Virus record (IMG/VR): IMGVR_UViG_3300010413_000018
Location: 1-64,000 of that record
DNA: 64,000 nucleotides
Origin: a virus
Strand: one strand, 5' to 3'
Shown: positions 9,992-57,666 of the stretch, piece after piece
How the letters are laid out: each line of letters opens with the position of its first letter
Position numbering within the stretch: the stretch's first letter is position 1
Program-made: the position numbers and the translations under genes
The notes under the pieces: model-generated
Told to the model about the DNA's origin: nothing
Database searches by the model: none
What the model saw: only the letters and a program-made list of their open reading frames with translations

Positions 9992-10038
9992 TTGCAACGT
10001 TACTTTTTATTTGCAAACGTAACAAAATGAAGTATGCT
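9992..10038 (+). promoter_or_regulatory. Tandem-box promoter P1
   Basis: TTGCAA at 9992 and again at 10011 (19 bp apart, separated by ACGTTACTTTTTAT), then a 16-bp spacer and TATGCT (10033-10038). Start is predicted about 7 nt on, at the A of ATGGAC (10045). The proximal TTGCAA serves as -35; the distal box is extra and conserved in nine other promoters, so it may be an activator or operator site. Confidence 0.8.
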
Positions 10039-10044
10039 TTAAAT

Positions 10045-10368
10045 ATGGACAGCAACAAAGGAAATAAGATGGGAAACAGCGAAAAAACAACAATCAACAC
10101 CGTTTACTACACCGCTTACGCGTTTGCATCAACCCTAATCGCCGCCGTCGACGACAGAGACGCTGACTGGGATCTGGTTGACCAGACCGCAAAAGACACC
10201 GTAGCCGCGTGTGAAGAAGTTGTTCCTAGCCCAGCCCTTAGCCGCGCGCTCGACTACGCGGAAGCGATCGTGAACCGCGAAGCCAAAGCCACCTACGAAG
10301 CCATCAAAAACGTAGCCGGCCTTGACGACGCGCTTATGAGCGAGCTGTCCACCCTACTCTGCAACTAA
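10045..10368 (+). CDS. Phage hypothetical protein, paralogue of 19959
   Basis: 99 aa if started at ATG 10069 (AAAGGAAATAAG precedes it), or 107 aa from a leaderless ATG at 10045; both are in frame. An apparent ATG at 10027 lies inside the promoter and is rejected. Mostly helical and acidic. The segment VPSPALSRALDYAEAIVNRE matches LPGNALSNVLQIAESMTG of the protein at 19959, so the two are distant paralogues, each behind the same promoter type. Function unknown. Confidence 0.75.
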   Translation: MDSNKGNKMGNSEKTTINTVYYTAYAFASTLIAAVDDRDADWDLVDQTAKDTVAACEEVVPSPALSRALDYAEAIVNREAKATYEAIKNVAGLDDALMSELSTLLCN

Positions 10369-10381
10369 TAAAGGCTCAAAC

Positions 10382-10750
10382 ATGGACGAAAACACCAGAA
10401 ACAAAGTCGCGAAACTGCCTGTGTGGGCGCGCAACCTAATAAACCAGCTTGAAGTGGAAGTCGCTTGCTACCAGCACGAGATCGAAACCTTGAAGCAAGT
10501 AAAAACGTCGCGGATCTACTACGGTTTTGAAGCATCACAGCGTGGCATGATGCCGATCCCCGACGACGGTCCAGTCACCTTCATGATGGGTCAGCTAAAG
10601 CCAGAAAACGAGTTTTCGCGAATACGTATCAGCTACGATCGCGACGCGCTTGAACCGGACAAATGGCTGACTGTAAGCAGTGACCTCGGCGCCCTTCTGG
10701 TAAAGCCGTGGGCCAGCAACATGATCAAGATCAAGATCGAAGATCGGTAA
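10382..10750 (+). CDS. Conserved phage hypothetical protein
   Basis: 122 aa. Begins with a helical stretch LPVWARNLINQLEVEVACY followed by a predicted coiled coil, then a beta-rich domain (FSRIRISYDRDA, WLTVSSDLGALLVKPWASN). I recall similar proteins (LPxWAxxLIxxLE) in many phages, without a function. AAAGGCTCAAAC precedes the ATG. Its stop is followed directly by the ATG of ZR22. Confidence 0.8.
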   Translation: MDENTRNKVAKLPVWARNLINQLEVEVACYQHEIETLKQVKTSRIYYGFEASQRGMMPIPDDGPVTFMMGQLKPENEFSRIRISYDRDALEPDKWLTVSSDLGALLVKPWASNMIKIKIEDR

Positions 10751-11014
10751 ATGCCAAAGCAAGAAATGGTGATGTGCCCGCGATGCTACTTTTTTTGCGT
10801 GGCACCACCACGCCAAGGGGAAGAGTGTCATACTCAATGCGCGCTATGCGGTAATAAAAAGCAAGTTCCAGAAGATCTTGCTACCGCATACGCGCTAGTT
10901 GAAGACCACCTTCACGGCCACCCTACCACCAACGAAACGATCCGGCTAAAAAACGATTACTGGGGATGTGAATGGCGCCTAGAAATTGAACAGTCTAAAA
11001 ATCATCCCAAATAG
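10751..11014 (+). CDS. ZR-family protein (ZR22), plus strand
   Basis: 87 aa. CPRC (9-12) and CALC (30-33) with two spare cysteines (16, 26). KQVPEDLATAYALV is close to ZR9. Third gene of the P1 operon, immediately after the preceding stop. Its last 20 nt overlap the end of ZR23 coming from the other strand, so the two share a convergent junction without a terminator. Confidence 0.85.
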   Translation: MPKQEMVMCPRCYFFCVAPPRQGEECHTQCALCGNKKQVPEDLATAYALVEDHLHGHPTTNETIRLKNDYWGCEWRLEIEQSKNHPK

Positions 11015-11297
11015 ACTTATTTTTAACTAATCGGTACCACTTCGGTAAATCACGCGATAACCGTGCGGTTTCTTTATTGTTTTTCTCTCCGCTGTAAGTT
11101 TGGCGAACTTTCCGAGCTACGTCTTCATTCTTAAAACCTGACTTATCGTCACTGTCGTATAATAACCGATACGCGGTACTCATTTCTTCCGTAACCGATC
11201 GCGCTCCTTCGCATAACCGGCAGCCGTTAGGTCGGCGCCATGGGCTACCATGACACATCGGGCACGCTACGTTTTCTTTCTTACGCTTGGGCATCAT
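10995..11297 (-). CDS. ZR-family protein (ZR23), basic tail
   Basis: 100 aa. CPMCHGSPW (12-20), CRLCEG (26-31), STAYRLL. After the last helix a 30-residue Lys/Arg/Asn-rich extension follows (SGEKNNKETARLSRD). Overlaps ZR24 by 17 nt. Confidence 0.85.
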   Translation of the reverse strand: MMPKRKKENVACPMCHGSPWRRPNGCRLCEGARSVTEEMSTAYRLLYDSDDKSGFKNEDVARKVRQTYSGEKNNKETARLSRDLPKWYRLVKNKSIWDDF

Positions 11298-11514
11298 AAT
11301 CCTTTCTCAAGCTTAGTGCAGTTTCTCGCGAAACTGATTCTCCAACGTTCGAAATAAGCGCGTAAGCGGTTGCTAGATCTGAATTGACACTATTTGTCCC
11401 GTAGCATAAAACGCAGTCAGTAAACCCAAAATATCCGCCGTCAACGTCTACGCCACCACAGCGCGGACATTCCACCTTACTTAGATCGCCGTCGATTTTT
11501 CTGTCGCTGGGCAC
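11281..11514 (-). CDS. ZR-family protein (ZR24)
   Basis: 77 aa. CPRCGG (16-21) and CVLCYG (34-39); the linker is Gly/Asp/Phe-rich (GVDVDGGYFGFTD). NSDLATAYALI and SLRKDY follow. Overlaps ZR25 by 38 nt. Confidence 0.85.
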   Translation of the reverse strand: MPSDRKIDGDLSKVECPRCGGVDVDGGYFGFTDCVLCYGTNSVNSDLATAYALISNVGESVSRETALSLRKDYDAQA

Positions 11515-11716
11515 TAAAGTCCTTTTTCAACTGATAAATCTCGTTTGAAGATGGCGCCGTACCGTCTTCATGCTTCAAAAGTAAATACGCGGTTTCCAAG
11601 TTTTTTGAAACGTAGCCGCGCGTCCCACACAAAAAACACACGCACGTCTCGTTCCACGCGTTTTTCATACCGGCCGTACCGCCACAATGCGGGCAGTCTT
11701 TATGCTTCTTAGTCAT
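11477..11716 (-). CDS. ZR-family protein (ZR25)
   Basis: 79 aa. CPHCGGTAG (8-16), Cys25, CFLCGTRGYV (27-36), ETAYLLL. A basic tail (RQKNRRRSK) lies within the overlap with ZR24 and could reflect that overlap or nucleic-acid binding. Confidence 0.85.
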   Translation of the reverse strand: MTKKHKDCPHCGGTAGMKNAWNETCVCFLCGTRGYVSKNLETAYLLLKHEDGTAPSSNEIYQLKKDFSAQRQKNRRRSK

Positions 11717-11903
11717 AGCCTAAGTCTACCCTTACTTTTATTGTTTCTTCGATCGTTAACCAGCCACCGGTTGAAGCGTCAACTGTAAGCTTGTAAGCGG
11801 CAGCCAAATCTTCGGACACACGCCGCGTATTGGCGCACAACGAACACGGAACGCCGATCCCGTCGCAGCGCGGACACACTTCACTGTGGTCGTTGTTTAT
11901 CAT
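11709..11903 (-). CDS. ZR-family protein (ZR26)
   Basis: 64 aa from the ATG at 11903; starting at 11957 would add 18 residues that only retrace ZR27 in another frame. CPRCDGIG (10-17), CSLC (20-23), AAAYKL. Very short linker of six residues. Confidence 0.8.
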   Translation of the reverse strand: MINNDHSEVCPRCDGIGVPCSLCANTRRVSEDLAAAYKLTVDASTGGWLTIEETIKVRVDLGYD

Positions 11904-12159
11904 ACCCAAACAACCTGCGTAGCTCGCGCACTTCCCGCGCTTCCGGATGGGCCTCATCCTCTCCGATCAATAAAATATACGCTGTCTTCAGCTTTTCAGA
12001 GATCGGCTTACCCTCACACAGTGAACATTTACGGTACTGCCAGCCTTTTGGCCGCCACCCTTTCTCCGGACAGCGCGGGCACCCGTTTCTAATCCTTCCT
12101 TTGTTAACGCGTGGGGGGCGCCGTACGCGCCCCAAACCCCAGCCTCTAAGTCTTCGCAT
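11881..12159 (-). CDS. ZR-family protein (ZR27), Arg-rich N-terminus
   Basis: 92 aa. A strongly basic 25-residue N-terminus (RRLRGWGLGRVRRPPRVNKG), unlike other members, precedes CPRC (27-30) and CSLCEGKPIS (45-54). TAYILL and VRELRRLFGY follow; the C-terminal half closely resembles ZR18. The basic arm suggests RNA or DNA contact. Confidence 0.8.
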   Translation of the reverse strand: MRRLRGWGLGRVRRPPRVNKGRIRNGCPRCPEKGWRPKGWQYRKCSLCEGKPISEKLKTAYILLIGEDEAHPEAREVRELRRLFGYDKQRPQ

Positions 12160-12162
12160 GAT

Positions 12163-12495
12163 TTACCCGATCATCAACTCCGCGTAGTCCTCCAGCTCGC
12201 TAAGAACCTCCAAATAACCGGAAGAATGTCCTTCTTCCCACGCACGGTCAGCGGCTTTACGGCCGTTCTTGTGGTTTTCCAACCCACACGCGCGAATCGC
12301 TTCACATATGAACAACTCTTCAAGTCGCCTACTTTCCGCGCGGTACGCTCTATTCTTCTCCAAATACGCGTCACGAATATCTTTACGTTTCGCAGATTGC
12401 CGATCTGGCGCTTCCGGAAATGAAAGCTTGTTTTCAAACTCGCCGGCTTGAATACGCTCTTCTAACGCCTCTATTTTAACTCTATCTAGTGCCAT
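12163..12495 (-). CDS. Charged helical protein
   Basis: 110 aa from the ATG at 12495, preceded by AAGGAGAAAACA. All-helical, high in Arg/Glu/Lys, with a central YLEKNRAYRAESRRLEELF and a C-terminal helix ending in LSELEDYAELMIG. Not recognised. Begins the transcript into ZR27-23, driven by promoter P2. Confidence 0.75.
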   Translation of the reverse strand: MALDRVKIEALEERIQAGEFENKLSFPEAPDRQSAKRKDIRDAYLEKNRAYRAESRRLEELFICEAIRACGLENHKNGRKAADRAWEEGHSSGYLEVLSELEDYAELMIG

Positions 12496-12557
12496 TGTTT
12501 TCTCCTTATTGTTTGCAGTTACCACAAAATAAATCGGCTTTTCGCCTCACAGGTTTT

Positions 12558-12604
12558 AGTATAACTCATTTTGTTATGGTTGCAAATAAAAAGTAACGTT
12601 GCAA
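12558..12604 (-). promoter_or_regulatory. Tandem-box promoter P2
   Basis: Minus strand: TTGCAA (12604-12599), TTGCAA (12585-12580), 16-bp spacer, TATACT (12563-12558). The boxes are 19 bp apart as in P1. Here the leader is about 60 nt long before the AAGGAG site. Confidence 0.8.
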
Positions 12605-12607
12605 ACT

Positions 12608-13132
12608 TTATTCTTCTGCGTACACCCTTTTCCAACTTTCAATAAACGCCACGATCGCCTTGGCGCCTTCCGGGTTCATTGATATTACAGTATACTCAAA
12701 CGTAGGTGTAAAGTTGGATAGGTGCAGCCACCGTAAAAACTCCATCACCGTGCTGTTCTCGCCTAAGTCGTGATCAAGGTACATATGATCCGGTAAGCCG
12801 TACCTCTGCACGTGAAACTTAGCTAATTCCACACAGTTAGCCCAAATCACTAGCGCGTCCCTCGGTATGTCATGGTCTCGATCCTTTCCGGGATTGCGCA
12901 CGTCATCCAACCACAAAATGTAGCGGATCGGTTGATCCAATAAAACACTTTTTAATTCACGTGCTGACTGCCCGTCTAACCCGTAACAATTATCTGCCTT
13001 CTCTAGAGCGTACGCTGCAGCTAAAAACTCCGGCACTTCACCGGTATCCTCGCAAAAAAAGCATCGCCGTTGACTAAAAAGTGCCTTCGCCATGTAACAG
13101 TGTGGACATTTAGCATACCCTGGTTTCATCAC
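12608..13132 (-). CDS. ZR-cREC fusion protein (ZR28)
   Basis: 174 aa. Residues 1-65 are a complete ZR unit: CPHC (9-12), CFFC (24-27), AAAYAL, ARELKSVL. Residues about 70-170 match the pattern of the cyclic-phosphate-processing receiver-like family (cREC): ILWLDDVRNPG (72-82) with an Asp pair, a central W/A helix, and YLDHDLG (118-124) with Asp-His-Asp. The family assignment is from memory of its signature. cREC is predicted to act on RNA or nucleotide cyclic phosphates, so the fusion hints that ZR domains work near nucleic acids. Overlaps ZR29 by 4 nt. Confidence 0.8.
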   Translation of the reverse strand: MMKPGYAKCPHCYMAKALFSQRRCFFCEDTGEVPEFLAAAYALEKADNCYGLDGQSARELKSVLLDQPIRYILWLDDVRNPGKDRDHDIPRDALVIWANCVELAKFHVQRYGLPDHMYLDHDLGENSTVMEFLRWLHLSNFTPTFEYTVISMNPEGAKAIVAFIESWKRVYAEE

Positions 13133-13332
13133 TTTTCTCCGTACTGAGTGCGTAAATTATCAATAAGCTCAATTATTTGTAAACTCGTGCGCGCTGTATC
13201 AATCATCAAAATGTAAGCCGCGCGCGTACAAGGTTGTACTTTATGCTTACCTTTACATAGCAAGCAATTTTTGAACTTAATCAGCTCACAACGCGGGCAG
13301 TCTACTAGCTGTGTTTTCTTCTTCCAGTGCAT
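13129..13332 (-). CDS. ZR-family protein (ZR29)
   Basis: 67 aa. CPRC (12-15), CLLCKGKHKV (23-32), RAAYILM, IDNLRTQYG. A -35/-10 pair lies just upstream (13339-13366), and the predicted transcript start falls at or next to the ATG, leaving almost no leader. Confidence 0.85.
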   Translation of the reverse strand: MHWKKKTQLVDCPRCELIKFKNCLLCKGKHKVQPCTRAAYILMIDTARTSLQIIELIDNLRTQYGEK

Positions 13333-13338
13333 TAATGG

Positions 13339-13366
13339 TTAATACCCGCGCCACAACTTTTTGTAA
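13339..13366 (-). promoter_or_regulatory. GGGTATTAA-type promoter for ZR29
   Basis: Minus strand TTACAA (13366-13361), 16-bp spacer, TATTAA (13344-13339) preceded by CGGG. The same GGGTATTAA string occurs before the genes at 27372 and 21303, suggesting a second promoter class in the window. Confidence 0.6.
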
Positions 13367-13376
13367 ATATTTTTGT

Positions 13377-13423
13377 TTGCAACGTTACTTTTTATTTGCA
13401 CTAACCCTAAAATGAAGTATGCT
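13377..13423 (+). promoter_or_regulatory. Tandem-box promoter P3
   Basis: TTGCAA (13377), TTGCAC (13396), 16-bp spacer, TATGCT (13418-13423). Predicted start at about 13430, the A of the ATG, so the message is probably leaderless. Confidence 0.8.
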
Positions 13424-13429
13424 TTAAGT

Positions 13430-13645
13430 ATGGACAAACGCTACAGAAAAATCAGTCAAAAAGAACGACAGGCAATGATTGACGACAGAAAAGTACAACT
13501 TCGCTCATTATGCAACGAAGTAGGATCTTGTGCTAACGAAGAACGCAGAATTTTACAAGCGGACATCAAGCGGTTAGAAAACCGCAGCCGTAAAGTTGTT
13601 TTTGACACATACGAAAGAACTGTCTGTTACGCCAGTTCAAAGTAA
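13430..13645 (+). CDS. Small basic helical protein, leaderless start
   Basis: 71 aa from ATG 13430, the predicted first base of the transcript; no ribosome-binding site is present. A start at an earlier ATG would place coding sequence over the -10 box. Helical and rich in Arg/Lys/Glu (QKERQAMIDDRKVQLRSL) with three cysteines. Function unknown. Confidence 0.7.
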   Translation: MDKRYRKISQKERQAMIDDRKVQLRSLCNEVGSCANEERRILQADIKRLENRSRKVVFDTYERTVCYASSK

Positions 13646-13670
13646 AACCCTAACCCTTTCGGAGGTTTTC

Positions 13671-13943
13671 ATGAAAGTTTCTCTTACCGCGATCGCTACC
13701 CTAACCGCTTCCCCTAACAACACCGAGCTACGCGGCCAACGCGCTAGCCGCACGGTTGTTTTCGGCGAATTTTCGCGCTATTGCTTGTTCGCCGTGCATG
13801 TGCGCGAAGGTAACCGCGTTATGTGGATGGTCGAAGACGCCGAGACCGTAGATCCGGAAACCGGCCTATCGGAAGTTATTCGCCAGGCTTGGACTCCGCT
13901 TGAGGCAGTAAAAGGCCTGGAAGCTGAATTCGCAACGACGTAG
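13671..13943 (+). CDS. Phage hypothetical protein
   Basis: 90 aa from ATG 13671, which follows CGGAGGTTTTC; an earlier in-frame ATG at 13596 has no site and overlaps the preceding gene. Small alpha/beta protein (YCLFAVHVREGNRVMWMVED) ending in an acidic helix. Second gene of the P3 transcript, followed by a terminator. Confidence 0.75.
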   Translation: MKVSLTAIATLTASPNNTELRGQRASRTVVFGEFSRYCLFAVHVREGNRVMWMVEDAETVDPETGLSEVIRQAWTPLEAVKGLEAEFATT

Positions 13944-13965
13944 TTTGCACGTTTCCCAAAAGTTT

Positions 13966-13993
13966 AGGCGGCTCCTGGCCGCCTTTATTTTTT
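13966..13993 (+). terminator. Rho-independent terminator
   Basis: AGGCGG (13966-13971) pairs with CCGCCT (13979-13984), then TTATTTTTT. Ends the P3 transcript just before P4. Confidence 0.8.
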
Positions 13994-14008
13994 AATAAAA
14001 AAAGTTGT

Positions 14009-14055
14009 TTGCAACGTTACTTTTTATTTGCATATCCCACAAAATGAAGTATGCT
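14009..14055 (+). promoter_or_regulatory. Tandem-box promoter P4
   Basis: TTGCAA (14009), TTGCAT (14028), 16-bp spacer, TATGCT (14050-14055). Predicted start at 14062, the A of ATG. Confidence 0.8.
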
Positions 14056-14061
14056 TTAAAT

Positions 14062-14343
14062 ATGGACAAAAACACAAATAAAACCTACACCGTAGAAGTT
14101 TTTCGAAGCACTAACCGCATCAGCATCGTAACCGGTACGGTAGCGGAGCTGACCCGTCATTTTATGTACACGCTGCAAGCTGGAGCTTCCTACCAGCACG
14201 AGCGCGGCAACAAAAAGATCAACCTAGCGCCGAAGAACATAACCGCGCTTTTGGCAAACCTGAATAAAGCCAGCGCTAACGTTTCTTGCAACGGTAGCCG
14301 AAACAAAACCTACGCACTTTCCCAGTTTGACGAGCAAAATTAG
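14062..14343 (+). CDS. Phage hypothetical protein, leaderless start
   Basis: 93 aa starting MDKNTNKTYTVEVFRS at the predicted transcript start. Appears alpha/beta with a Lys/Asn-rich C-terminal half (NGSRNKTYALSQFDEQN). No recognised family. First of a two-gene unit with 14353. Confidence 0.7.
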   Translation: MDKNTNKTYTVEVFRSTNRISIVTGTVAELTRHFMYTLQAGASYQHERGNKKINLAPKNITALLANLNKASANVSCNGSRNKTYALSQFDEQN

Positions 14344-14352
14344 AGGCAACCA

Positions 14353-14628
14353 ATGAACAGCACACAAAAACATACAGTTCAAACGATAAACGACCTCCTA
14401 GTTCAAAACGGTGTTGACGCGCTAATTAAAGTAACGACCGGTAAGTGGCGCGCTTCTTGCACCAACTCCGCTGCTAAAAAGCAAACATACCTTAGCGGCC
14501 AGTGGGTGGCGTCTCACCGACGATCGCGCGGTACCGTTGAAGCGCTCCGGAACGCAGTAGTAGCGTCCGGCTTTTCAGTAGTTGATACTTGGGCCGACGA
14601 TTACAATGTCGGTGTCGTTTTTAATTAG
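14353..14628 (+). CDS. Phage hypothetical protein
   Basis: 91 aa. AGAGGCAACCA precedes the ATG. Begins with a helix (TINDLLVQNGVDALIKV) then a basic middle (TGKWRASCTNSAAKKQTY) and a hydrophobic end. Could be a small nucleic-acid-binding protein, but nothing decisive is seen. Promoter P5 begins 10 bp past its stop. Confidence 0.7.
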   Translation: MNSTQKHTVQTINDLLVQNGVDALIKVTTGKWRASCTNSAAKKQTYLSGQWVASHRRSRGTVEALRNAVVASGFSVVDTWADDYNVGVVFN

Positions 14629-14637
14629 ATATTTTAT

Positions 14638-14685
14638 TTGCAACGTTACTTTTTATTTGCACGTACCACAAAAGCGTGGTATACT
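14638..14685 (+). promoter_or_regulatory. Tandem-box promoter P5
   Basis: TTGCAA (14638), TTGCAC (14657), 17-bp spacer, TATACT (14680-14685). Closest of the set to a consensus sigma-70 -10. The leader ATGGACAATAACA is shared in spirit with the other transcripts. Confidence 0.8.
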
Positions 14686-14724
14686 TAAAGCATGGACAAT
14701 AACACTGCAACAAGGGGTAAAATA

Positions 14725-15228
14725 ATGTTACGAAAAGAAAGAAATCAAGAGTGCGCGCGAAATTGGCTTCAAACCAGCAAAAATACACTAATGAATCTTC
14801 TGGAAGGTGAAATGCGATCCGCACTATCAGCCGAAGCGATCGACCATATTGGGCGCGCCGTTCTCGAAATAAGCGACGCTCAGCGCGCGGTACGTAAAGC
14901 CAGCCAACCCGTAAAAAAAGAAAAAGCGCCGGAAGCGATCAAGTTCACCGACGTGATGAGCGTGTACTCCGGTAAAGCCGGGCACTGTTGCTGTGGTTGT
15001 TCCGGAAAGCACACTTACCGCTCCGAAACGCGGGAGCAAGCCGGTAAAAATCGTGGCTACGCCATAGGTGACGACGAGGTCAACGACAGCTCTGTAAAGC
15101 GTATTTTGAGCACCATGAATCAACTAATCGCCAGTAACAAACCGTGCGAAATTGATATGCCGTCCGACTGGGGGCACATAGCTATAACGTTCGGCTCGCG
15201 GCTTTACGTCGCCTACCTAAGAAAGTAA
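14725..15228 (+). CDS. Phage hypothetical with CCCGC motif
   Basis: 167 aa from ATG 14725 (AAGGGGTAAAATA upstream); an in-frame leaderless ATG at 14692 would add 11 residues. The N-terminal half is a coiled coil (EAIDHIGRAVLEISDAQRAV). The middle holds VYSGKAGHCCCGCSGKHTY, a cysteine cluster I recall from uncharacterised phage proteins, likely metal-binding. The C-terminal part is alpha/beta. Leads an operon with the SspB homologue and two ZR genes. Confidence 0.75.
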   Translation: MLRKERNQECARNWLQTSKNTLMNLLEGEMRSALSAEAIDHIGRAVLEISDAQRAVRKASQPVKKEKAPEAIKFTDVMSVYSGKAGHCCCGCSGKHTYRSETREQAGKNRGYAIGDDEVNDSSVKRILSTMNQLIASNKPCEIDMPSDWGHIAITFGSRLYVAYLRK

Positions 15229-15237
15229 CCTAACCTG

Positions 15238-15603: not shown

Positions 15604-15809
15604 GTCAAGAAACAAAACAAACAATGGCGTGCCCGCGCTGTACTGGCGTGGGTGCGTTTATACCTTGGCATAGTTGTGCACTTTGTCACAACCGTAAAGC
15701 AGTTCCAGTAGAGGTAGGTACCGCGTACAATTTGTTGCGCGACGACGGCGAACCCCACCTATCACAAGTTCGAACTGATTGGCTTTTAAGGCAATTTAAA
15801 AATGAGTGA
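15600..15809 (+). CDS. ZR-family protein (ZR30), plus strand
   Basis: 69 aa. CPRCTGVG (11-18), CALC (26-29) then HNRKAVPVE, GTAYNLL. The 4-nt overlap with sspB and 8-nt overlap with ZR31 put it in the middle of the P5 operon. Confidence 0.85.
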   Translation: MSQETKQTMACPRCTGVGAFIPWHSCALCHNRKAVPVEVGTAYNLLRDDGEPHLSQVRTDWLLRQFKNE

Positions 15810-19958: not shown

Positions 19959-20270
19959 CTAGCAGGCTCCCTTTAGCGCGTGGGCGCAGTATTCGTCGCG
20001 TAGCGTTTGTTCGAGGTTAAGGTCAGCGTCGCGAAGGTAAAGCTCAAAAGCTACGCCGTCTTTGGTCCCGGTCATCGACTCGGCGATCTGTAAAACGTTG
20101 CTGAGCGCGTTTCCGGGAAGGATCTCGCTCGCCGCCTCTAGCGCTTGTCGGCAAAGCTCGTAAATGTCTTCGCCAAAAGTGATTATAAAACCGGTCTGTT
20201 TCATCGTGTCAAGCGCTTTCGCTAGGTCGATTCCAACGCGGTAAATGTCGTTTATTGTAGCGGTTGTCAT
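19959..20270 (-). CDS. Phage hypothetical protein, paralogue of 10045
   Basis: 103 aa from the ATG at 20270 behind AAGGAGAAACAACA; an ATG at 20318 falls inside the promoter and is rejected. Helical; LPGNALSNVLQIAESM is the stretch shared with the protein at 10045-10368. Driven by P6. Confidence 0.75.
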   Translation of the reverse strand: MTTATINDIYRVGIDLAKALDTMKQTGFIITFGEDIYELCRQALEAASEILPGNALSNVLQIAESMTGTKDGVAFELYLRDADLNLEQTLRDEYCAHALKGAC

Positions 20271-20306
20271 TGTTGTTTCTCCTTGTTGTGTTGTCGTCAT
20301 ATTTAA

Positions 20307-20353
20307 AGCATACTTCATTTTGTTACGTTTGCAAATAAAAAGTAACGTTGCAA
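20307..20353 (-). promoter_or_regulatory. Tandem-box promoter P6
   Basis: Minus strand: TTGCAA (20353-20348), TTGCAA (20334-20329), 16-bp spacer, TATGCT (20312-20307). Confidence 0.8.
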
Positions 20354-24322: not shown

Positions 24323-24508
24323 TTACTCCCAGCCTTTAATGTTCGCGTTGTAATGTAAACCGGATCTTATAGCCGCGCGGAACGCTTCAGCCGGATTCGT
24401 AAACGTAGTTGCGCCGTTTACAGTTTCGCGGTTACTGCTACCTGGCTTTACAAAGATCCAGTTAGCCGTGCCAAAACAATCGGCTGTTTCTCGTACCAGT
24501 GTGATCAT
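24323..24508 (-). CDS. Small phage protein
   Basis: 61 aa from the ATG at 24508 (AAGGAGAATTCA upstream); a leaderless in-frame start at 24532 would add MDNNKENS. Contains WIFVKPGSSNRETVNGATTF and NPAEAFRAAIRSG, an alpha/beta mini-domain. Unknown. Confidence 0.7.
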   Translation of the reverse strand: MITLVRETADCFGTANWIFVKPGSSNRETVNGATTFTNPAEAFRAAIRSGLHYNANIKGWE

Positions 24509-24538
24509 TGAATTCTCCTTGTTGTTGTCCATACTTAA

Positions 24539-24585
24539 AGGATAACAAAAAATTGAATGAATGCAAATAAAAAGTAACGTTGCAA
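24539..24585 (-). promoter_or_regulatory. Tandem-box promoter P7
   Basis: Minus strand: TTGCAA (24585-24580), TTGCAT (24566-24561), 16-bp spacer, TATCCT (24544-24539). Confidence 0.75.
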
Positions 24586-25181: not shown

Positions 25182-25578
25182 TAATCCTTCTCACTTCCTG
25201 TTTGATACCGGTTTCAACCTCATCAGCGATCTTGTCGCATTTCTCTCCACCTTCTTCACGAAGTAGCTTTACGGCGTGCGCTAACACTGAAAGTAGTCGA
25301 TCTTTGGATAAACCGGTAAGGTCAAGACGCTTAGCAGACGCCACTAAACGTGCCTTCCACCATTGATCGACAAGCTCTGGAGTTTCTTCATGGATCCGTT
25401 GTTGCGCCCAGCGCTCACGCGGATATTTCCAACCGTCCAGAGTCCACTTCGAACCATCGTCCAGCTCTATGAACCGTTTTAAAACGCGCTTAACGATACG
25501 GCGCCGTAAAATCGGCGAACTGAAATGCCCAACAATAGTCATGACCCGTTGCCCTTCATACCAAACTTGATCGCTCAT
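25174..25578 (-). CDS. Phage hypothetical protein
   Basis: 134 aa. N-terminal small beta domain (VWYEGQRVMTIVGHFSSPIL, IELDDGSKWTLDGWKYPRER), then a helical region rich in Lys/Leu. AAGGAGCAATAA precedes the ATG. First gene after P8; the start overlaps nothing. Confidence 0.75.
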   Translation of the reverse strand: MSDQVWYEGQRVMTIVGHFSSPILRRRIVKRVLKRFIELDDGSKWTLDGWKYPRERWAQQRIHEETPELVDQWWKARLVASAKRLDLTGLSKDRLLSVLAHAVKLLREEGGEKCDKIADEVETGIKQEVRRING

Positions 25579-25610: not shown

Positions 25611-25657
25611 AGGATACAATAAAAAAGTATGAATGCAAATAAAAAGTACAGTTGCAA
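25611..25657 (-). promoter_or_regulatory. Tandem-box promoter P8
   Basis: Minus strand: TTGCAA (25657-25652), TTGCAT (25638-25633), 16-bp spacer, TATCCT (25616-25611). Confidence 0.75.
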
Positions 25658-28889: not shown

Positions 28890-29414
28890 CTACTTTCCGG
28901 TGGAACCGAATCCACCTGTACCGCGATCTGAGCTTGTAAAGTCTTTAACTTTAATCACTGCACCATGTGAAACTGGAACAATCAACAACTGCGCGATCCG
29001 ATCATTCTTTTTGATTAGTCGATATGTGTCACTCTGCACCGGTTCGCTATCCGGATCCATCGGCACCGACATCAAGCATACGATGATTTCTCCGCGATAC
29101 CCGCTATCCACGACTCCTGGTTGGTTCGCCACGATTAAACCTTGCTTACACGCTAATCCCGAACGTGAGCACACCAAACCGACGTACCCAAACGGAATCT
29201 CAATGGCGATGCCAGTGCCGAACGCTATTCTCCGGAAGTCTTCCTTGAAACTCACTTTACCGGTCGCCGCGAACATGCGCTTCATTAAATTTAGGTCATC
29301 TCCTATGACGCGATTAGCGTGAAGGTCAAATCCCGCATCGCCGGTAAACTGCGGCTCTGGCACAACGGCATCATCTACCAAACACTTATACTTTAATGGC
29401 GGATACACTGTCAT
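28890..29414 (-). CDS. dut: dUTPase
   Basis: 174 aa from the ATG at 29414; the longer frame from 29495 only retraces the upstream gene. Trimeric dUTPase motifs are present in order: DAGFDLHAN (1), SRSGLA (2), GVVDSGYRGE (3), DRIAQLLI (4), and a Gly-rich RGTGGFGSTG at the C-terminus (5). It hydrolyses dUTP to dUMP, lowering uracil incorporation and feeding thymidylate synthesis, consistent with thyX and the dCMP deaminase in this window. The insert between motifs 1 and 2 is longer than usual. Confidence 0.95.
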   Translation of the reverse strand: MTVYPPLKYKCLVDDAVVPEPQFTGDAGFDLHANRVIGDDLNLMKRMFAATGKVSFKEDFRRIAFGTGIAIEIPFGYVGLVCSRSGLACKQGLIVANQPGVVDSGYRGEIIVCLMSVPMDPDSEPVQSDTYRLIKKNDRIAQLLIVPVSHGAVIKVKDFTSSDRGTGGFGSTGK

Positions 29415-29415
29415 A

Positions 29416-29610
29416 TTAAATCTCCAGCACCGCGTCAGCGTCCAGATCAAACTCAGCCGGTAAAGTTTTTGTGATGCACAGCACTTTATAACCATTCTTA
29501 CGCTGAATCGCTATAAACTCTTCCGAGTATGGACGCGGTTGAACAAAAAAGCGCGGCTCACCTGGTTTAACCAGTACCCACATTTCAAGTTTCATCGGTA
29601 CTTTCGCCAT
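29416..29610 (-). CDS. Small hypothetical protein
   Basis: 64 aa. Beta-rich (LEMWVLVKPGEPRFFVQPRP, GYKVLCITKTLPAEF), acidic C-terminus. Followed one base later by the dUTPase start. Unknown. Confidence 0.65.
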   Translation of the reverse strand: MAKVPMKLEMWVLVKPGEPRFFVQPRPYSEEFIAIQRKNGYKVLCITKTLPAEFDLDADAVLEI

Positions 29611-29617
29611 ATTCCTC

Positions 29618-30232
29618 CTAACCTATTAGTTTTGAGAACTCTCCAAATTGCTCGAACGCTTCCATAAATAGTTTAATACGCGTACCGTAATAAATTAGTG
29701 CGAGCGGCGTCGGATACATCTGTTCGTAGCCTGCAAACGCGATCGGATTCAATAAGTTCAAGCACGTCGCGCGCTTGGCGTGATAGCGATACCACTTCCG
29801 ATTCGTCCTTACAGGAACCAAAAACAAGTGCTCGCGGTTGTTTATACCTTTACTGAGCCACATGTTCAAGTTATTGAACGGCGGATTACAGAACGTACGA
29901 TCTGGCCAATCAATAGACAAACCAGCCCCAACTCCTATCGAATACTTCGGGGAAGAAATAAATACCCAGTTTTCAATAAAGGTGTTGTATTTACCAATCA
30001 CATGATGCTCGGCCGGTATCAGTGAATTTGCATTGCTACAAGGGTCAAGCTCAACACCTTCAGGCCATAAAACCAAAAGCGCGTCAGCCATAGCTTGTGG
30101 CGTATTAATATCCTGAGGCCGATCCTGGCCGCCTACCCGTGCGCCAAAAAACGATCTCATTGCACGTAACGAATAGTCACGCCCGACCGGTAAATGAATT
30201 TTACTTTCTTTAGTACGCTTTGTTCGCGCCAT
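29618..30232 (-). CDS. Phage Dam-type DNA N6-adenine methyltransferase
   Basis: 204 aa. VELDPCSNANS resembles the AdoMet-binding motif and DRTFCNPPFNN contains NPPF, the catalytic (D/N)PP(Y/F) of N6-adenine methylases. This matches the phage Dam family that lacks a separate recognition domain. It is likely to modify phage DNA against restriction or mark strands. No cognate endonuclease adjoins it. Confidence 0.88.
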   Translation of the reverse strand: MARTKRTKESKIHLPVGRDYSLRAMRSFFGARVGGQDRPQDINTPQAMADALLVLWPEGVELDPCSNANSLIPAEHHVIGKYNTFIENWVFISSPKYSIGVGAGLSIDWPDRTFCNPPFNNLNMWLSKGINNREHLFLVPVRTNRKWYRYHAKRATCLNLLNPIAFAGYEQMYPTPLALIYYGTRIKLFMEAFEQFGEFSKLIG

Positions 30233-30307: not shown

Positions 30308-30589
30308 TCAGTTTTTGTCAAACTTACCATCAAGGCAGTCGGAGTTCATGCACGAATATCCTAGGATATCCTCACCGTCTTCACGTCCAGGAGCTTCAGC
30401 TGTTAGTCGAAGCCAACCCGCGTGCTTTACACGTATAGCTTCAAGCCTAGCGCCGCACTTTTCACAGTAAAGCTCTTCGGGTTCCGGAGGCGTGCGTGGA
30501 ATAAACGGCTTAGGTCGCTCAGTAATCGGCTCGTGACAACGTACTACTTCAAGTTGAACGGTTTTGGCTTCTGATCGTGCGGTTCTCAT
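30308..30589 (-). CDS. Zinc-ribbon protein, leaderless start
   Basis: 93 aa. CEKCGARL (42-49) and a distal Cys pair (CMNSDC, 80-85) form a likely zinc ribbon; the N-terminus has PRTPPEPEE. The ATG at 30589 coincides with the transcript start predicted from P9, so translation is probably leaderless. Confidence 0.75.
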   Translation of the reverse strand: MRTARSEAKTVQLEVVRCHEPITERPKPFIPRTPPEPEELYCEKCGARLEAIRVKHAGWLRLTAEAPGREDGEDILGYSCMNSDCLDGKFDKN

Positions 30590-30595: not shown

Positions 30596-30642
30596 ATTTT
30601 AGTTTATTACAGAACGAATGCAAATAAAAAGTAAGATTGCAA
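30596..30642 (-). promoter_or_regulatory. Tandem-box promoter P9
   Basis: Minus strand: TTGCAA (30642-30637), TTGCAT (30623-30618), 16-bp spacer, TAAAAT (30601-30596). Box spacing 19 bp as elsewhere. Confidence 0.75.
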
Positions 30643-52004: not shown

Positions 52005-52027
52005 AGCATTACTGCTCTTTCTGTTTA

Positions 52028-53458
52028 TTAAGAGGGCTCCGGCGCATCAGTTTTAGTGACACTCAACGCTGAAATCACAGTGACGTCGTGGCCTTCGCGC
52101 TCATATGCATTCTTCCTAGCGTGTGAATGCTTAATCAACATGCGATTGCCTTCGTCAATAAAATCCCAAACTTGAAACGTGTTGCCTTTACCTTCTGCAG
52201 TTCGCATTCCCCGGCCAATACGCTGTAAGGTGGCGATCACACTTTTACCTGCTGCCGCGACGATCACAGATTTGAGTTCTGGTATGTCGGCGCCTTCTTG
52301 TAGTACCACTGAACAAATCAACACATCTATGTCTGCGCGCACTAAACGTTCAATCGCGGCTATTCGACTGGGAGTCATGGTAGTGCCCCATACAAATTCC
52401 GCGTTTAAACCGGCCTGTTGAAACCGTTGCAGTAGGGCTTTACCGTGCTTTATTTCTTTTACAAAAACGAGCGCTGGCTTGGCAGCTACTTGCGCAACTT
52501 GGGTAATGATTTGATTGCGCTTAGTGTTGCGCACGATGCCTTCACCGTACGCTCCTTGAAATGTAGGCGCGCGGCTTACGGCTGGAGCTTTTACCATTTT
52601 GATATCAGGCTTGGCTAGCAACCCACGCTCAATCAGTACTTCAGGTCTAAGCCTATAGATAACTGGTCCGAGTGTTCCAATTGCGAGTAAACTTCTACGG
52701 TCATCGCGCGCTAACGGTGTTCCTGAGATTCCAATGCGATAGTACGCGTTTGGTATTTGGCGAGTAACTTCGTAAAACGTGTCAGCAGCGACAGTGTGGC
52801 TCTCATCAATAATTACACCTTGAATGCCTTGAAGAAACTTTCTTGCGCGTATTGTTTTTGGATTGGTAGAGTTTTTTGGTTCGTCTTTAAGCGCTCCATG
52901 TAGTGTTTGAAAAGTGGCTGCTGTAAACCGTTCTTCTTCCCAACGGCCGTCTCCGATTCGGCCCACTACCGCTCCAGTACGCTTTACGTAACGATCGGCT
53001 GCTTGGTGCATTAGGTTTTCACGATGCACAAGAAAAAGCCAGCGACATGGAAAAGCAACCGCTAGGCCTACTGCTATTTCTGTTTTTCCCGCTCCAGTCG
53101 GAAGCCACAGAATACCGCGAGTACGTTTAGCTGCTGCGCGGACAGCAATAAACTGATAGTCACGAAGCCAATTTAAATCAGCGCTAGTGTCGCGAGTAAT
53201 AGGTTTGATACGTAGGTCTATAACATTTACGTCGAAGCCTTGGTCTTTCGCGGCTTTATAAACCATTTGAGTGAATCCGCCAGGAAATGTCTTAGAAAAT
53301 AAACTGTAAAGATGGCGCCGCGTATCACCGCTTTTGGTGAATTTTTTGTTCCAAAAGCGCGCTTTAGCGTCGTCAAAAGACAGGTATTCGTAGAGCCAAG
53401 CAGTTTCATCTTCGTTGGCAACTACTTTTGTTAAAAGATTAGAAAGTGTTAGTTGCAT
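52028..53458 (-). CDS. SF2 helicase, UvsW-like
   Basis: 476 aa. Motif I LPTGAGKTE, motif II IIDESHTV (DESH), motif III ISGTPL, later LICSVVLQEGADIPE and motif VI LQRIGRGMR. N-terminal 90 residues are helical. This is the DEAD/DEAH-type repair or branch-migration helicase plan of phage UvsW-like proteins. Likely unwinds or anneals branched DNA in recombination. Confidence 0.92.
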   Translation of the reverse strand: MQLTLSNLLTKVVANEDETAWLYEYLSFDDAKARFWNKKFTKSGDTRRHLYSLFSKTFPGGFTQMVYKAAKDQGFDVNVIDLRIKPITRDTSADLNWLRDYQFIAVRAAAKRTRGILWLPTGAGKTEIAVGLAVAFPCRWLFLVHRENLMHQAADRYVKRTGAVVGRIGDGRWEEERFTAATFQTLHGALKDEPKNSTNPKTIRARKFLQGIQGVIIDESHTVAADTFYEVTRQIPNAYYRIGISGTPLARDDRRSLLAIGTLGPVIYRLRPEVLIERGLLAKPDIKMVKAPAVSRAPTFQGAYGEGIVRNTKRNQIITQVAQVAAKPALVFVKEIKHGKALLQRFQQAGLNAEFVWGTTMTPSRIAAIERLVRADIDVLICSVVLQEGADIPELKSVIVAAAGKSVIATLQRIGRGMRTAEGKGNTFQVWDFIDEGNRMLIKHSHARKNAYEREGHDVTVISALSVTKTDAPEPS

Positions 53459-53460
53459 TT

Positions 53461-53868
53461 TTAGCGGTTGCTGCCGTACATTATGCGCTGATATAGCTTC
53501 GGTATTGCTTGATATTGTTGTGCAAGTGATTGGGTGTCAATGTAGCGTTTAAGCTGCATCTTTTCTTTCACTAAAATGGACTTGACTACCTTTTCTCCGA
53601 TTAAACGGTGGATGAATTTTTCGTCACGTTTAGTTCTTTTTGCTGCTTCGCTAACCGAAATGTAGCCGATTGGAATTTTGGTTGGTGCGTTGAGTTTGTC
53701 TACTAGTGATTTTTTTATAAGCCGTTGGTTGGCGACTTCGATAGAGGTTATTTTTCCATTTTTAACCCAACGCCAAACGGTTGAAAAAGCAACATCAAGG
53801 ACGATGGCTGCTTCGGAGATGGTGTAGTAGTTCGCGGTAGCGGGTAGCTCTAGTTTCTTTTTTGGCAT
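53461..53868 (-). CDS. Double HTH protein
   Basis: 135 aa. Two excisionase-like HTH units: YYTISEAAIVLDVAFSTVWR (about 15-34) and YISVSEAAKRTKRDEKFIHR (about 68-87), each followed by a short basic wing. Likely binds paired DNA sites. Lies 2 bp from the SF2 helicase start. Confidence 0.8.
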   Translation of the reverse strand: MPKKKLELPATANYYTISEAAIVLDVAFSTVWRWVKNGKITSIEVANQRLIKKSLVDKLNAPTKIPIGYISVSEAAKRTKRDEKFIHRLIGEKVVKSILVKEKMQLKRYIDTQSLAQQYQAIPKLYQRIMYGSNR

Positions 53869-53887
53869 GTTTTCACCTTTACCTGTA

Positions 53888-54355
53888 TTATGCAGGATTC
53901 TTTTTTTGTGTCAACTTTTCACTTACCATAGAAAGTAAAAGTTGGCGCGCGCCTGGCCACCCCGTCAGTCTATGCGCACCTATAAATGCGGTTTGATCCG
54001 TTTCATTTGCGGCTAAATGCTGGAGAAACATTAGGCGCAGTTCGCGTGTAGTGCGAGGATATGATTTCGCTCGCGTTTTTGTAAGAACAATATCTGCCCA
54101 ATTTGGAATCCACAATCCATAGATCGCGGTTTGCTCGTAAATGCGCCCTCCGGATAGGCTTACCATTTCGCGTTTAGTAGGTACGTTTCCTTCTCTAATA
54201 AGCCGTTTCCAGCTACCATCAAGTATGCACCAGCCCTCTTGGATCATGCGATCATAAATCACTTGAAACTTACAGAAGTCTGAGTTTTGGTGTGCTTCTA
54301 TGTTCTTGGAAAAACAGCGTTTTCCGCATTTCGGACATCGCCAATACCTGCTCAT
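53888..54355 (-). CDS. Zinc-finger phage protein, paralogue of 58022
   Basis: 155 aa. CPKCGKRCFSKNIEAHQNS near the N-terminus is a C2H2-like finger (CxxC...H...C). GWCILDGSWKRLIREGNVPTKRE and WIPNWADIVLTK follow, both matched in order in the protein at 58022-58543. Distant paralogues, possible DNA- or RNA-binding adaptors. Overlaps the next gene by 4 nt. Confidence 0.8.
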   Translation of the reverse strand: MSRYWRCPKCGKRCFSKNIEAHQNSDFCKFQVIYDRMIQEGWCILDGSWKRLIREGNVPTKREMVSLSGGRIYEQTAIYGLWIPNWADIVLTKTRAKSYPRTTRELRLMFLQHLAANETDQTAFIGAHRLTGWPGARQLLLSMVSEKLTQKKNPA

Positions 54356-54897
54356 CTACGCTCCCACAGTTTTTGTATACGCGCGTCGTTCTTGATTGCT
54401 CGCCGCGCTAAACGAGTGGCGTGATAAACCTTGTTTATGTGACAGTGGTTTCGTTTAGCCACTTCTTCAGCCGATAGCTCGTCCAGAATGAACTGGCGTG
54501 CTAGGTGGCTGTTTGGTTGTTGTTTGAGAATGAAATTAATACGCCGCTTTATTTTTCTTTGCCAGCGTGCTTCGGCCAATTCTTTTTCTATTTCAACGTC
54601 TTCTACACCGGTTTCCGGGAGTAACTCTTCGTTTTGAAGTTTGACAATTTCGTGGAGTCCATGCCAGCTTGACGATACCGGAGCTTTGGCGCGTACAATG
54701 TGTTGGTACACAACGCGGCGCGCTACGATCCGCGCGTACGCTTTTAGGTCATTGCCGGTTAAAGCTTTCCGTCGTGTTGATGCCCAAAGAGCTAAGTACG
54801 CGGCATTGAAACAGTCTTTTTCATGGTCCGGCATTTTGAACTTCGTTGCTGCTTTGTGTGCTTCGGTTTTTAGTATTGATACAATGCTTTGTTCCAT
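54352..54897 (-). CDS. Sigma-factor-like protein
   Basis: 181 aa. Residues about 20-70 (KDCFNAAYLALWASTRRKA, AYARIVARRVVYQHIVRAK) resemble sigma-70 region 2, and the C-terminal LARQFILDELSAEEVAKRNH then INKVYHATRLARRAIKND looks like a region 4 helix-turn-helix. It might direct polymerase to the tandem-box or GGGTATTAA promoters here; no evidence shows which. Alternatively a plain transcription regulator. Confidence 0.7.
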   Translation of the reverse strand: MEQSIVSILKTEAHKAATKFKMPDHEKDCFNAAYLALWASTRRKALTGNDLKAYARIVARRVVYQHIVRAKAPVSSSWHGLHEIVKLQNEELLPETGVEDVEIEKELAEARWQRKIKRRINFILKQQPNSHLARQFILDELSAEEVAKRNHCHINKVYHATRLARRAIKNDARIQKLWERR

Positions 54898-54906
54898 CCC
54901 TGTCTC

Positions 54907-55500
54907 CTATATAAAGTTTTGCTTAAATGCTCGCTTCACTTTTTGCCCATGATCCTTTACTTGCAGAATAATAGGCAATCTACTACGCTTTATTGATTCT
55001 GTATAACTTCCTACTTGAATTCCCAGTACTTCACTGAGTTTAAATGGATCTTTGTACTTATGCGCTTCTTTAATTATTTTCCATGGTCGCCGCGATCGTT
55101 TCTTTTTTGTTGCGATGAAAATGGGTACTAATGATTTTTGAAAGCGCCATGCGTTGTAATGAAACAACACACGAAACATGATGTTGTTGGCTACGCGCCA
55201 TTCCGCTAGTTCCATTTCAGTGAAGAAGTCTTCTAAGCGCGCGGCTATTCCATCGTGCACAGCAGTAGGTACAAAAGGAAATTCACAGCGTTCTCCCTCC
55301 TGGCTAGCTTGACGTTGGCGAACTGCAGGGTACGGGCTGTCAACATACAGTTTTGACAAGTTGCCGCGTTTTTTCCAAAAAAAGTAATGCTCTTCACGAT
55401 TAACGCGTTCATACAGTACGGCTATTGAACCCCATTTACCGGTGATAGATCGCCCGTTTACAATATTCCAGCATAGATTGGAGTTTGAATTATTTTCCAT
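54907..55500 (-). CDS. Phage hypothetical protein
   Basis: 197 aa. Alternating strands at the start (SITGKWGSIAVLYERVNREE), then a basic middle (FIATKKKRSRRPWKIIKEAH). The C-terminus is also basic. The DNA-binding impression is weak. Overlaps the next gene by 11 nt. Confidence 0.7.
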   Translation of the reverse strand: MENNSNSNLCWNIVNGRSITGKWGSIAVLYERVNREEHYFFWKKRGNLSKLYVDSPYPAVRQRQASQEGERCEFPFVPTAVHDGIAARLEDFFTEMELAEWRVANNIMFRVLFHYNAWRFQKSLVPIFIATKKKRSRRPWKIIKEAHKYKDPFKLSEVLGIQVGSYTESIKRSRLPIILQVKDHGQKVKRAFKQNFI

Positions 55501-56335
55501 TTTTCAACATTTTTCTTACGCCAGCATGGTTGTTCAAAGCATTCATAGCCGTTCGCACTGCTTGTAAAACGTTTTGTTGATGGATTTTTGCTTTGATGTG
55601 GCGCTTTACATTAACTATTTCTTTTTGGCACACACGGCAGTAGTTTTTCGTGATAAAAGCACCTGTATCGCGCGCTTCTTTAAACCAACCATCGCACAAA
55701 ATGAAGCGATCGGTTAGTGGCTCTGCTAGGGCTACGTAGTGAAATTTTGTCTTTTCACGGTCCATTACACCTATTGTATACGGACCTATGTTGGTGGTTT
55801 CTTGTTTGCCAGTAACAAAACACTGCGTTACGATTTGACGTTTTCTAACTAAAAACTCGTTTGCAATCCACGGCGAAACATGCCGGTTTAGGTATTCGTT
55901 GAACACAAGTGCTTTCCGTTTATCGCGCATATCTTCGTTTATTTTGGTAATTGGCCAGCTTAAAATTTCTTCAGGTTTGTTGACTTTTTTTGCATAAAAT
56001 CGTTCTTGGCGAATATCTGTGCTTCTAACAAATACAGTTTCAAACAGAGCTTTATTGAAACGATTAAAGTACTCGTGTGTGAGTATGCGTCTAATCGGGA
56101 CCGTGGGTTGCTGGGCGCCTTCTAACTGCGCGCGTATAAAGCTCACTACCGATAGGCAAGTTACAGCGCTGAGTTTATTGGCGCTATCAGCTAGCGTCTC
56201 ATTATGCTTAGTACAGTCTGATGATAAATGTCGCACTTGAAAGTTTTCATCTAACGCTATGTGTACCATGTGCTTACCGGTTTTTGATAATGCACACGGC
56301 ACTTGAAAACTGTATCTTTGGTCTATTGTACGCAT
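55490..56335 (-). CDS. Phage protein with C-terminal C2H2-like finger
   Basis: 281 aa. Residues 1-220 form a mixed alpha/beta body with no familiar motif; about residue 230 onward CRVCQKEIVNVKRHIKAKIH has C-x2-C and H-x5-H as in C2H2 fingers (unusual spacing). Similar fingers of phage-encoded type bind nucleic acid. The start falls 64 bp before the AAA gene. Confidence 0.7.
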   Translation of the reverse strand: MRTIDQRYSFQVPCALSKTGKHMVHIALDENFQVRHLSSDCTKHNETLADSANKLSAVTCLSVVSFIRAQLEGAQQPTVPIRRILTHEYFNRFNKALFETVFVRSTDIRQERFYAKKVNKPEEILSWPITKINEDMRDKRKALVFNEYLNRHVSPWIANEFLVRKRQIVTQCFVTGKQETTNIGPYTIGVMDREKTKFHYVALAEPLTDRFILCDGWFKEARDTGAFITKNYCRVCQKEIVNVKRHIKAKIHQQNVLQAVRTAMNALNNHAGVRKMLKNGK

Positions 56336-56398
56336 GGCTATACTTTCAGTTTGAAGTGCCCCTCTACGAGCGACACTCCATACTCAACGCACAGACAG

Positions 56399-57553
56399 TT
56401 AGCTCCCTTTGATTCCGGCTGCAGTCATGACTTTGTTCATCTTCGTTAAGACTGGCCGTGCTTCTTTGTGTTTTAAGTGCCCGGCTTGAGCCATGCGCCT
56501 GGCAGGTCCAAAGACGATGTCTTGGGCGCCTTTTCCGGCTATTCCAGCTAGGATCGTCCAAAGCTTTTTGGCGCGCGCGTCACGGTTTTTTGCTCCTTCA
56601 GGAATTACTAGCGCGGTACAAGCTGAAAGAACCGCGTAAGTACGATCTAGACGTTTTGCGTTGTGCTCGAATTCTTCTTTGCCTTCGAGAATAGCGACCG
56701 GATCGGGAAGGTCATGCTCGTTCAAGAACGTGAATAGTTCTCCTATTACCGGTTCGCCTACATACGACGATAGCAGTGCGATTTCTTCGTTTTCGTCTAG
56801 TAGGTGAATGGTGCTGGTGGCCATGGCTCGGGTAACCATTTCCCATGTACGACGACTCGGCCAAGCGCCACTGGCTTTTGGATCATGTGCTGCCGGCATC
56901 TTGTGAAGCAGCTCTGGACGTCGCTTTACAAAAGCCGCGATTTTACCTTTTGCTTTTGCGAACTCTTCCGGCCATGCCGCTAAAACGCGTTTTTCTTCGT
57001 CTTCCGGTTTTAAGGTTTCGGAAACTTCGTCACCGACTTCGTTTTCGATAAGCCAGTCGATCCAGTTTTCAACGGTTCCCGCGTTGAATGGAAGATGCCC
57101 CATGCGGTTGGCCAATGGAGGCGGTAAGTCGTAACCGGCTGCCGCTTCTTCCACCGCGTTGTACGCCGCGATAGTGCGTACTCCTGGCGGAAGTGCGTGT
57201 CCACCGATCCGGCCTTCGAGGAACAGTCCCAACAATGGCGGTTGAAGGGCTGGCGGAGCAGTAGTCAGCTCATCGACGAATACAATACCGCGTTTCTGTT
57301 CCATGAAGTATTGCGCCCATTCTGGAGGCGGATACGTCAGCACGTTGTTTTCCGGAACCGGAACAACGCCAAACGCGCCTTCTCCGCGCTCACCTGGCGA
57401 CAGAATTTCACAGTGCATTCCGCACGATTTTGCGATTTGTTTTATTTGAGAGGTTTTGCTTGTTCCGGGAGACGCGACGAGTGCGAGCTGTAAACCCCAC
57501 CCACGAATGGTCGGCGTGAACAAGACTGCTTTGATGATTTTTTTCATATCCAT
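56399..57553 (-). CDS. MoxR-like AAA ATPase
   Basis: 384 aa from the ATG at 57553, behind GGAGG; a GTG 18 nt earlier is possible. Walker A ASPGTSKTSQ, Walker B GIVFVDELTTAPP, sensor-like RTIAAYN. With the VWA gene at 58543 it fits the MoxR-VWA pairing, where the ATPase acts as a chaperone-like remodeller of a VWA partner. Promoter P10 sits directly upstream. Confidence 0.85.
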   Translation of the reverse strand: MDMKKIIKAVLFTPTIRGWGLQLALVASPGTSKTSQIKQIAKSCGMHCEILSPGERGEGAFGVVPVPENNVLTYPPPEWAQYFMEQKRGIVFVDELTTAPPALQPPLLGLFLEGRIGGHALPPGVRTIAAYNAVEEAAAGYDLPPPLANRMGHLPFNAGTVENWIDWLIENEVGDEVSETLKPEDEEKRVLAAWPEEFAKAKGKIAAFVKRRPELLHKMPAAHDPKASGAWPSRRTWEMVTRAMATSTIHLLDENEEIALLSSYVGEPVIGELFTFLNEHDLPDPVAILEGKEEFEHNAKRLDRTYAVLSACTALVIPEGAKNRDARAKKLWTILAGIAGKGAQDIVFGPARRMAQAGHLKHKEARPVLTKMNKVMTAAGIKGS

Positions 57554-57618
57554 GTTGCTATTATCCTCCACCCCAAACTAAGGTGTTGGGAAACCGTTGG
57601 TTGTTAGTTATTCTTTAG

Positions 57619-57666
57619 ATTATTGCATAAAAAAAGTAAGCTTGCAAATAAAAAAGGTAGTTGCAA
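57619..57666 (-). promoter_or_regulatory. Tandem-box promoter P10
   Basis: Minus strand: TTGCAA (57666-57661), TTGCAA (57647-57642), 17-bp spacer, AATAAT (57624-57619). Drives the MoxR-like gene. Confidence 0.7.

Follow-up and report, generated by a model that had tools for sequence, protein, structure and literature searches.

Introduction

Ten promoters with two TTGCA boxes 19 bp apart raise the question of what keeps such an arrangement in a phage genome and what it does for the genes behind it. The window analysed here, 64,000 bp in total, comprises positions 1-64000 of a virus record of 140,728 bp. Myovirus-type genes (baseplate wedge, terminase, maturation protease) were found in this record together with genes of replication and repair (family A DNA polymerase, DnaB-like helicase, SbcC/SbcD-like proteins). 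Among the non-structural proteins the families RecA, Thy1, dCMP deaminase, gp32-like and dUTPase were also matched. The source is a poorly known tailed phage of about 140 kb.

The early region, including window positions 28890-30232, contains genes for a dUTPase, an S-adenosylmethionine decarboxylase and an SspB-like protein; several small proteins of the DnaJ/CXXC type are also encoded there. The terminase large subunit gene (record 106352-109111, minus strand) is unusually long with 919 aa. For residues 413-692 of its product the matching families carry the annotations anaerobic ribonucleotide reductase and endonuclease, which suggests an intein within this subunit. In the maturation-protease-like protein (record 101157-102611, minus strand; 484 aa) the 67 residues 256-322 are 67% identical to a Thermoanaerobacterium phage THSA-485A protein, a much higher value than in the rest of the protein. 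This stretch may be an inserted domain or an intein-like element.

Results

All ten promoters listed for the window in the initial annotation were confirmed at their positions (Table 1). With three further sites elsewhere in the record the class comprises at least 13 promoters. The conserved element has the consensus TTGCAacgtTACTTTTTATTTGCA and the layout TTGCA-N4-TACTTTTTAT-TTGCA, reaching from -53 to -30 relative to the predicted start. Both conserved TTGCA boxes described before are present 19 bp apart, but they are parts of a single 24-bp element and not loose boxes, since the entire 24-mer TTGCAACGTTACTTTTTATTTGCA is identical in seven of the ten window sites. The remaining three vary mostly at positions 6-11. 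No variation among the 13 sites was found at offsets 12-23, which cover the T-rich tract as well as the proximal TTGCA.

Direct repeats of TTGCA with 19 bp spacing occur 19 times on both strands of the whole record, and every other spacing between 5 and 60 bp occurs at most three times. In 20 order-3 Markov simulations no more than two repeats were obtained at spacing 19 and no more than five at any spacing. The pattern read backwards, used as control, gave one match compared to 19. The distal box is indeed too conserved for chance. A tandem 19-bp repeat of the iteron type was rejected as description of the element: only TTGCA recurs, and elsewhere the halves agree at 0.30, like other shifts. 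A degenerate further copy was detected at 61013-61036 on the plus strand (25.7 bits vs at most 8.5 in shuffles). It is centred at -64.5 from a promoter-like TTGGCG-18-TATAAT (61053-61082), clear of any -35, and this position favours a protein-binding site over a duplicated -35. On the opposite strand the copy overlaps with a possible promoter of the minus-strand gene at 60972.

In 11 sites TTGCAN and the -10 are 16 bp apart, in one (14638) 17 bp; at 57666 the -10 is unclear, with AATAAT at 17 bp. Thus, the distance of 15-17 bp given earlier holds as 16 or 17 bp for 12 of the 13 promoters, but not clearly for 57666. In these 12 promoters the -10 is TATGCT, TATACT, TATCCT, TAAAAT or TATAAT. These are ordinary sigma-70-type hexamers, which indicates that a sigma-70-type polymerase reads the class. 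The proximal box had been regarded as a good -35. Its match is in fact poor: TTGCAN agrees with TTGACA at three to four of six positions, and the alternative reading TTTGCA, with a spacer of 17 bp, agrees at four of six. TTGCA is invariant at the -35 position and TTGACA is present at none of the 13 sites; hence, a contact other than that of sigma region 4 probably keeps the proximal box, which points towards a further protein at this site. The suggestion that the distal box is a duplicated -35 is not supported either, as the intervening T-rich segment is equally invariant. The element overlaps the -35 and is centred at -41.5 from the predicted start, where class II activators bind.

In the early-type regions (record 9.9-31 kb and 122-138 kb) short units follow the sites, and most of their products are small and match no family; the site at 57.6 kb heads a replication gene cluster. 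The structural region at 62-118 kb contains none of the 13 sites. The reading as one promoter class heading separate short transcription units is supported, and the regulon, formerly called phage-wide, is confined to the early and replication regions. Terminator-like hairpins adjoin at least two units on the upstream side; those directly before 14009 and 14638 indicate that several units are independent and contain a single gene.

Table 1 Features of the promoter class and of candidate regulators (window positions unless given as record; SD, Shine-Dalgarno site)
Feature	Position	Strand	Remarks
Element	9992..10015	+	-10 TATGCT; predicted +1 = A of ATG at 10045
Predicted leaderless ORF, 107 aa, MDSNKGNKMGN...	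10045..10368	+	In-frame SD start at +25
Element	12581..12604	-	-10 TATACT; leadered; SD AAGGAG, ATG at 12495
Element	13377..13400	+	-10 TATGCT; ATG at predicted +1 = 13430
Predicted leaderless ORF, 71 aa, MDKRYRK...	13430..13645	+	
Terminator-like hairpin	13966-13984		Directly 5' of element 14009
Element	14009..14032	+	-10 TATGCT; ATG at predicted +1 = 14062
Predicted leaderless ORF, 93 aa, MDKNTNKTY...	14062..14343	+	
Terminator-like hairpin	14593-14613		Upstream of element 14638
Element	14638..14661	+	-10 TATACT, 17-bp spacer; ATG at predicted +1 = 14692
Predicted leaderless ORF, 178 aa, MDNNTATRG...	14692..15228	+	In-frame SD start at +34
Element	20330..20353	-	-10 TATGCT; ATG at predicted +1 = 20300
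Predicted leaderless ORF, 113 aa, MTTTQQGETT...	19959..20300	-	In-frame SD start at +31
Element	24562..24585	-	-10 TATCCT; ATG at predicted +1 = 24532
Predicted leaderless ORF, 69 aa, MDNNKENSM...	24323..24532	-	In-frame SD start at +25; frame not distinguished by composition
Element	25634..25657	-	-10 TATCCT; AAGGACAAC at predicted +1, codon AAG, no ATG; leadered, SD AAGGAG, ATG at 25578
Element	30619..30642	-	-10 TAAAAT; ATG at predicted +1 = 30589; stable hairpin directly 5'
Predicted leaderless ORF, 93 aa, MRTARSEAK...	30308..30589	-	
Element, followed by a third partial box (ATGCAA)	57643..57666	-	Leadered, SD GGTGGAGG, ATG at 57553
Unit behind promoter 57666		-	Contains sigma-like and HTH genes
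Sigma-like protein	54352..54897	-	Downstream of double-box promoter 57666
Candidate DNA-binding reader, 135 aa	53461..53868	-	One clear and probably a second MerR/excisionase-type helix-turn-helix (HTH)
Further elements outside the window	record 122401, 131660, 137570	-	

The main point missed in the initial annotation is the start codon at +1. With starts predicted from the sequence, 10 of the 13 promoters place +1 on the A of an in-frame ATG. The gap between -10 and ATG is 6 nt, with 7 nt at 122401. From the distal T to the ATG 53 or 54 nt were counted in the same proportion of sites; for independent sites the probability is 9e-14, a figure that partial copying among sites would weaken, although the sequences from the proximal box to the -10 are different in most sites. 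All ten +1 ATGs open ORFs, 69-178 codons in length. A 3-periodic coding model, trained on genes of at least 750 nt and on none of these ORFs, gave frame 0 the highest score within the first 60 codons of nine of them. The ORF of 24585 showed no coding preference, and those of 14638 and 137570 showed only a weak preference at their start. Element, geometry, in-frame ATG and coding signal are directly readable. Taken together, it is quite probable that the mRNAs of 10 of the 13 units are leaderless.

In E. coli, CA repeats downstream of the start promote leaderless translation. The ORFs opened at +1 often begin with ATGGACAACAAC, which is CA-rich; this block could also have been conserved at the RNA level, as initially transcribed sequence. 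In four units a second start with Shine-Dalgarno site follows 25-34 nt downstream, in frame in all four and out of frame in none, and the +1 ATG may be idle there. The promoters 57666, 25657 and 12604 are exceptions without +1 ATG and have longer leaders with GGAG-type Shine-Dalgarno sites. Outside the class, strict matches of -10 and ATG were found to open a long called gene convincingly only at record position 85054 on the minus strand. There, TATAAT with an extended -10 (TATGGTATAAT) is followed after 6 nt by the ATG of a 343-aa gene of the structural region. This gene, which does not belong to the double-box class, may be leaderless.

Relatives of the element were searched at several levels. 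In IMG/VR the exact core yielded no relative, the loose core only 21 single matches, and the architecture with ATG 15 single matches, which on inspection corresponded to about the chance rate; no relative was among them. A protein-led search with polymerase, SbcC-like protein, sigma-like protein, ATPase and RecA gave no relative carrying the element: two 7-kb contigs with 56-65% identity were found with the polymerase and 25 loci with SbcC, all without it. GTDB genomes gave three single matches, and none of these genomes contained a second exact copy; a host regulon with exactly this sequence was therefore not detected. Among phages and plasmids only matches with E 0.4-10 were obtained.

Two proteins encoded behind promoter 57666 were examined as readers. 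For the sigma-like protein, proposed earlier as candidate, the best family is TIGR02937 sigma70-ECF (28.1 bits vs a cut-off of 42.9, E 1.3e-6), and Pfam Sigma70_r2 gave 13.7 vs a cut-off of 24 (E 0.055). A late-promoter motif possibly read by it was sought and not found. The HTH protein matched TIGR01764 with E 1.3e-12, in two stretches at the permissive limit, and HTH_17 with E 1.2e-9. Comparison of its two halves gave no significant similarity (75 of 500 shuffles), which leaves the family match as the sole basis for the second domain. The nearest solved chains are 6ama and 6amk (E about 0.2), which we take to be BldC. No relatives of the HTH protein were found among phages. Alignment-free structure models of the two candidates, with mean pLDDT of 51.9 and 39.3, were too poor to use. 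Directly 5' of the HTH gene a near-consensus TTGACA-16-CATAAT is located (53888-53914, minus strand), overlapped by the inverted repeat CCTGCATAATACAGG. This promoter would put the HTH gene outside the regulon; single matches of this kind are expected by chance.

Discussion

As had been assumed, the conservation of the distal box is most likely due to a DNA-binding regulator, and the 24-bp element is quite probably a protein-binding regulatory site. Whether the bound protein is an activator we rate as an even question. With the same balanced confidence the following overall model is put forward. A sigma-70-type RNA polymerase would read at least 13 co-regulated phage promoters, and a regulator, most likely a class II activator, would bind the element and offset the poor -35 and the average -10. 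For 10 of the 13 units the model has transcription begin at the A of the start codon, giving a leaderless mRNA that would need 70S-type initiation. Start sites, leaderless translation and activation over repression are what we infer here from the DNA.

A different role of the element, that of an operator at which a repressor covering the -35 shuts the early units off, is unlikely but has several points in its favour. The element overlaps the -35, dispersed identical operators at early units are typical for a phage-wide repressor, and phage P1 C1 represses at scattered asymmetric operators. Furthermore, an antirepressor-type gene (P22_AR_N/Bro-N) is present at record 136278-136598 on the minus strand. 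However, no integrase or CI-like repressor family was found with Pfam among the 139 non-structural proteins scanned, the core promoter seems weak unaided, and the position of the 61013 copy at -64.5 would be unusual for repression. Early phage promoters are often extended in an UP-element-like manner, and a strong early promoter without any regulator would keep the T-rich tract and TTGCA through RNA polymerase alone, the alpha subunit of the host enzyme contacting the upstream segment. The T-rich CTTTTTAT at -42 to -35 and the AT-rich sequence 5' of the distal box fit this. The conserved G and C in TTGCA and TAC do not, as UP elements need none, and an invariant non-consensus -35 would be odd in a strong constitutive promoter; we regard this explanation, too, as improbable.

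The choice of reader is a separate question. Its weak family matches make the sigma-like protein a poor candidate, and we consider it very improbable that it reads the class. Its own gene lies behind a class promoter, which makes it hard to see how it could read the class first; the -10 belongs to the ordinary sigma-70 type, and ECF factors do not bind via a two-box upstream element. The HTH protein appears to be the better candidate, because proteins of its predicted fold, among them BldC, bind direct repeats head to tail. BldC is a MerR-like wHTH protein with this mode of binding (PMC5859096). The MerR-type fold, predicted here, and the direct-repeat site are common to both cases, but BldC has one wHTH and repeats of about 9-10 bp, whereas two domains on a 19-bp unit are hypothetical here. 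It is the most plausible phage-encoded binder, although that it actually reads the element is doubtful. Equally doubtful is the extended proposal that a fused two-domain MerR/excisionase-type phage protein reads a 24-bp activator site, each domain contacting half of the 19-bp unit, and that the start codon at +1 lets an early/middle gene set bypass Shine-Dalgarno sites on purpose. A host regulator as reader is possible.

Comparable promoter designs are known. T4 middle promoters carry a MotA box used with AsiA (PMC7403470). They share with the present class a phage activator box, putative here, near the -35, a -10 of host sigma-70 and genes of the delayed-early type, but the box sequence is another one and the present element spans -53 to -30. 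No relatives of MotA or AsiA were found among the listed Pfam matches of the 139 non-structural proteins. At the Pm promoter of XylS the spacing is 21 bp. Class II sites of the XylS/AraC type consist of direct repeats with a TGCA box and a second short box, abutting the -35 (PMC5481539). The TGCA-containing direct repeats adjoining the -35 are similar here; box B and the spacing, 19 bp in the present element, are different. AraC-type HTH domains were not among the Pfam matches of the 139 non-structural phage proteins; a host AraC protein falls outside this set.

Leaderless mRNAs are initiated by 70S ribosomes with reduced dependence on the anti-Shine-Dalgarno sequence, and in phages they are known singly, as for lambda cI. 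For Thermus phage phiYS40, leaderless middle and late transcripts were reported (PMC3594737). A phage with a set of leaderless mRNAs is also predicted here from sequence; in contrast to the phage of a Thermus host, the present set is of the early/replication type and tied to one upstream 24-bp element. A 5'-terminal AUG upstream of a Shine-Dalgarno start was described for E. coli mRNAs (PMC4965119). Four units are predicted to have this order, but here both starts are in frame and the arrangement is shared by units of a regulon.

As read from the sequence, this is a genuine phage regulon, in which known promoter designs are varied and an unusual design of leaderless translation would be added. 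A single sequence probably sets both the transcription timing and the translation mode of these genes. If this is true, a set of leaderless mRNAs tied to one promoter element in the large phage of an apparent mesophile would be a coordinated switch of transcription plus translation. If infection or defence interferes with initiation, leaderless messages could be of advantage to the phage. Likely start codons are also gained for about ten small genes of a kind that ordinary gene callers may miss or shorten.
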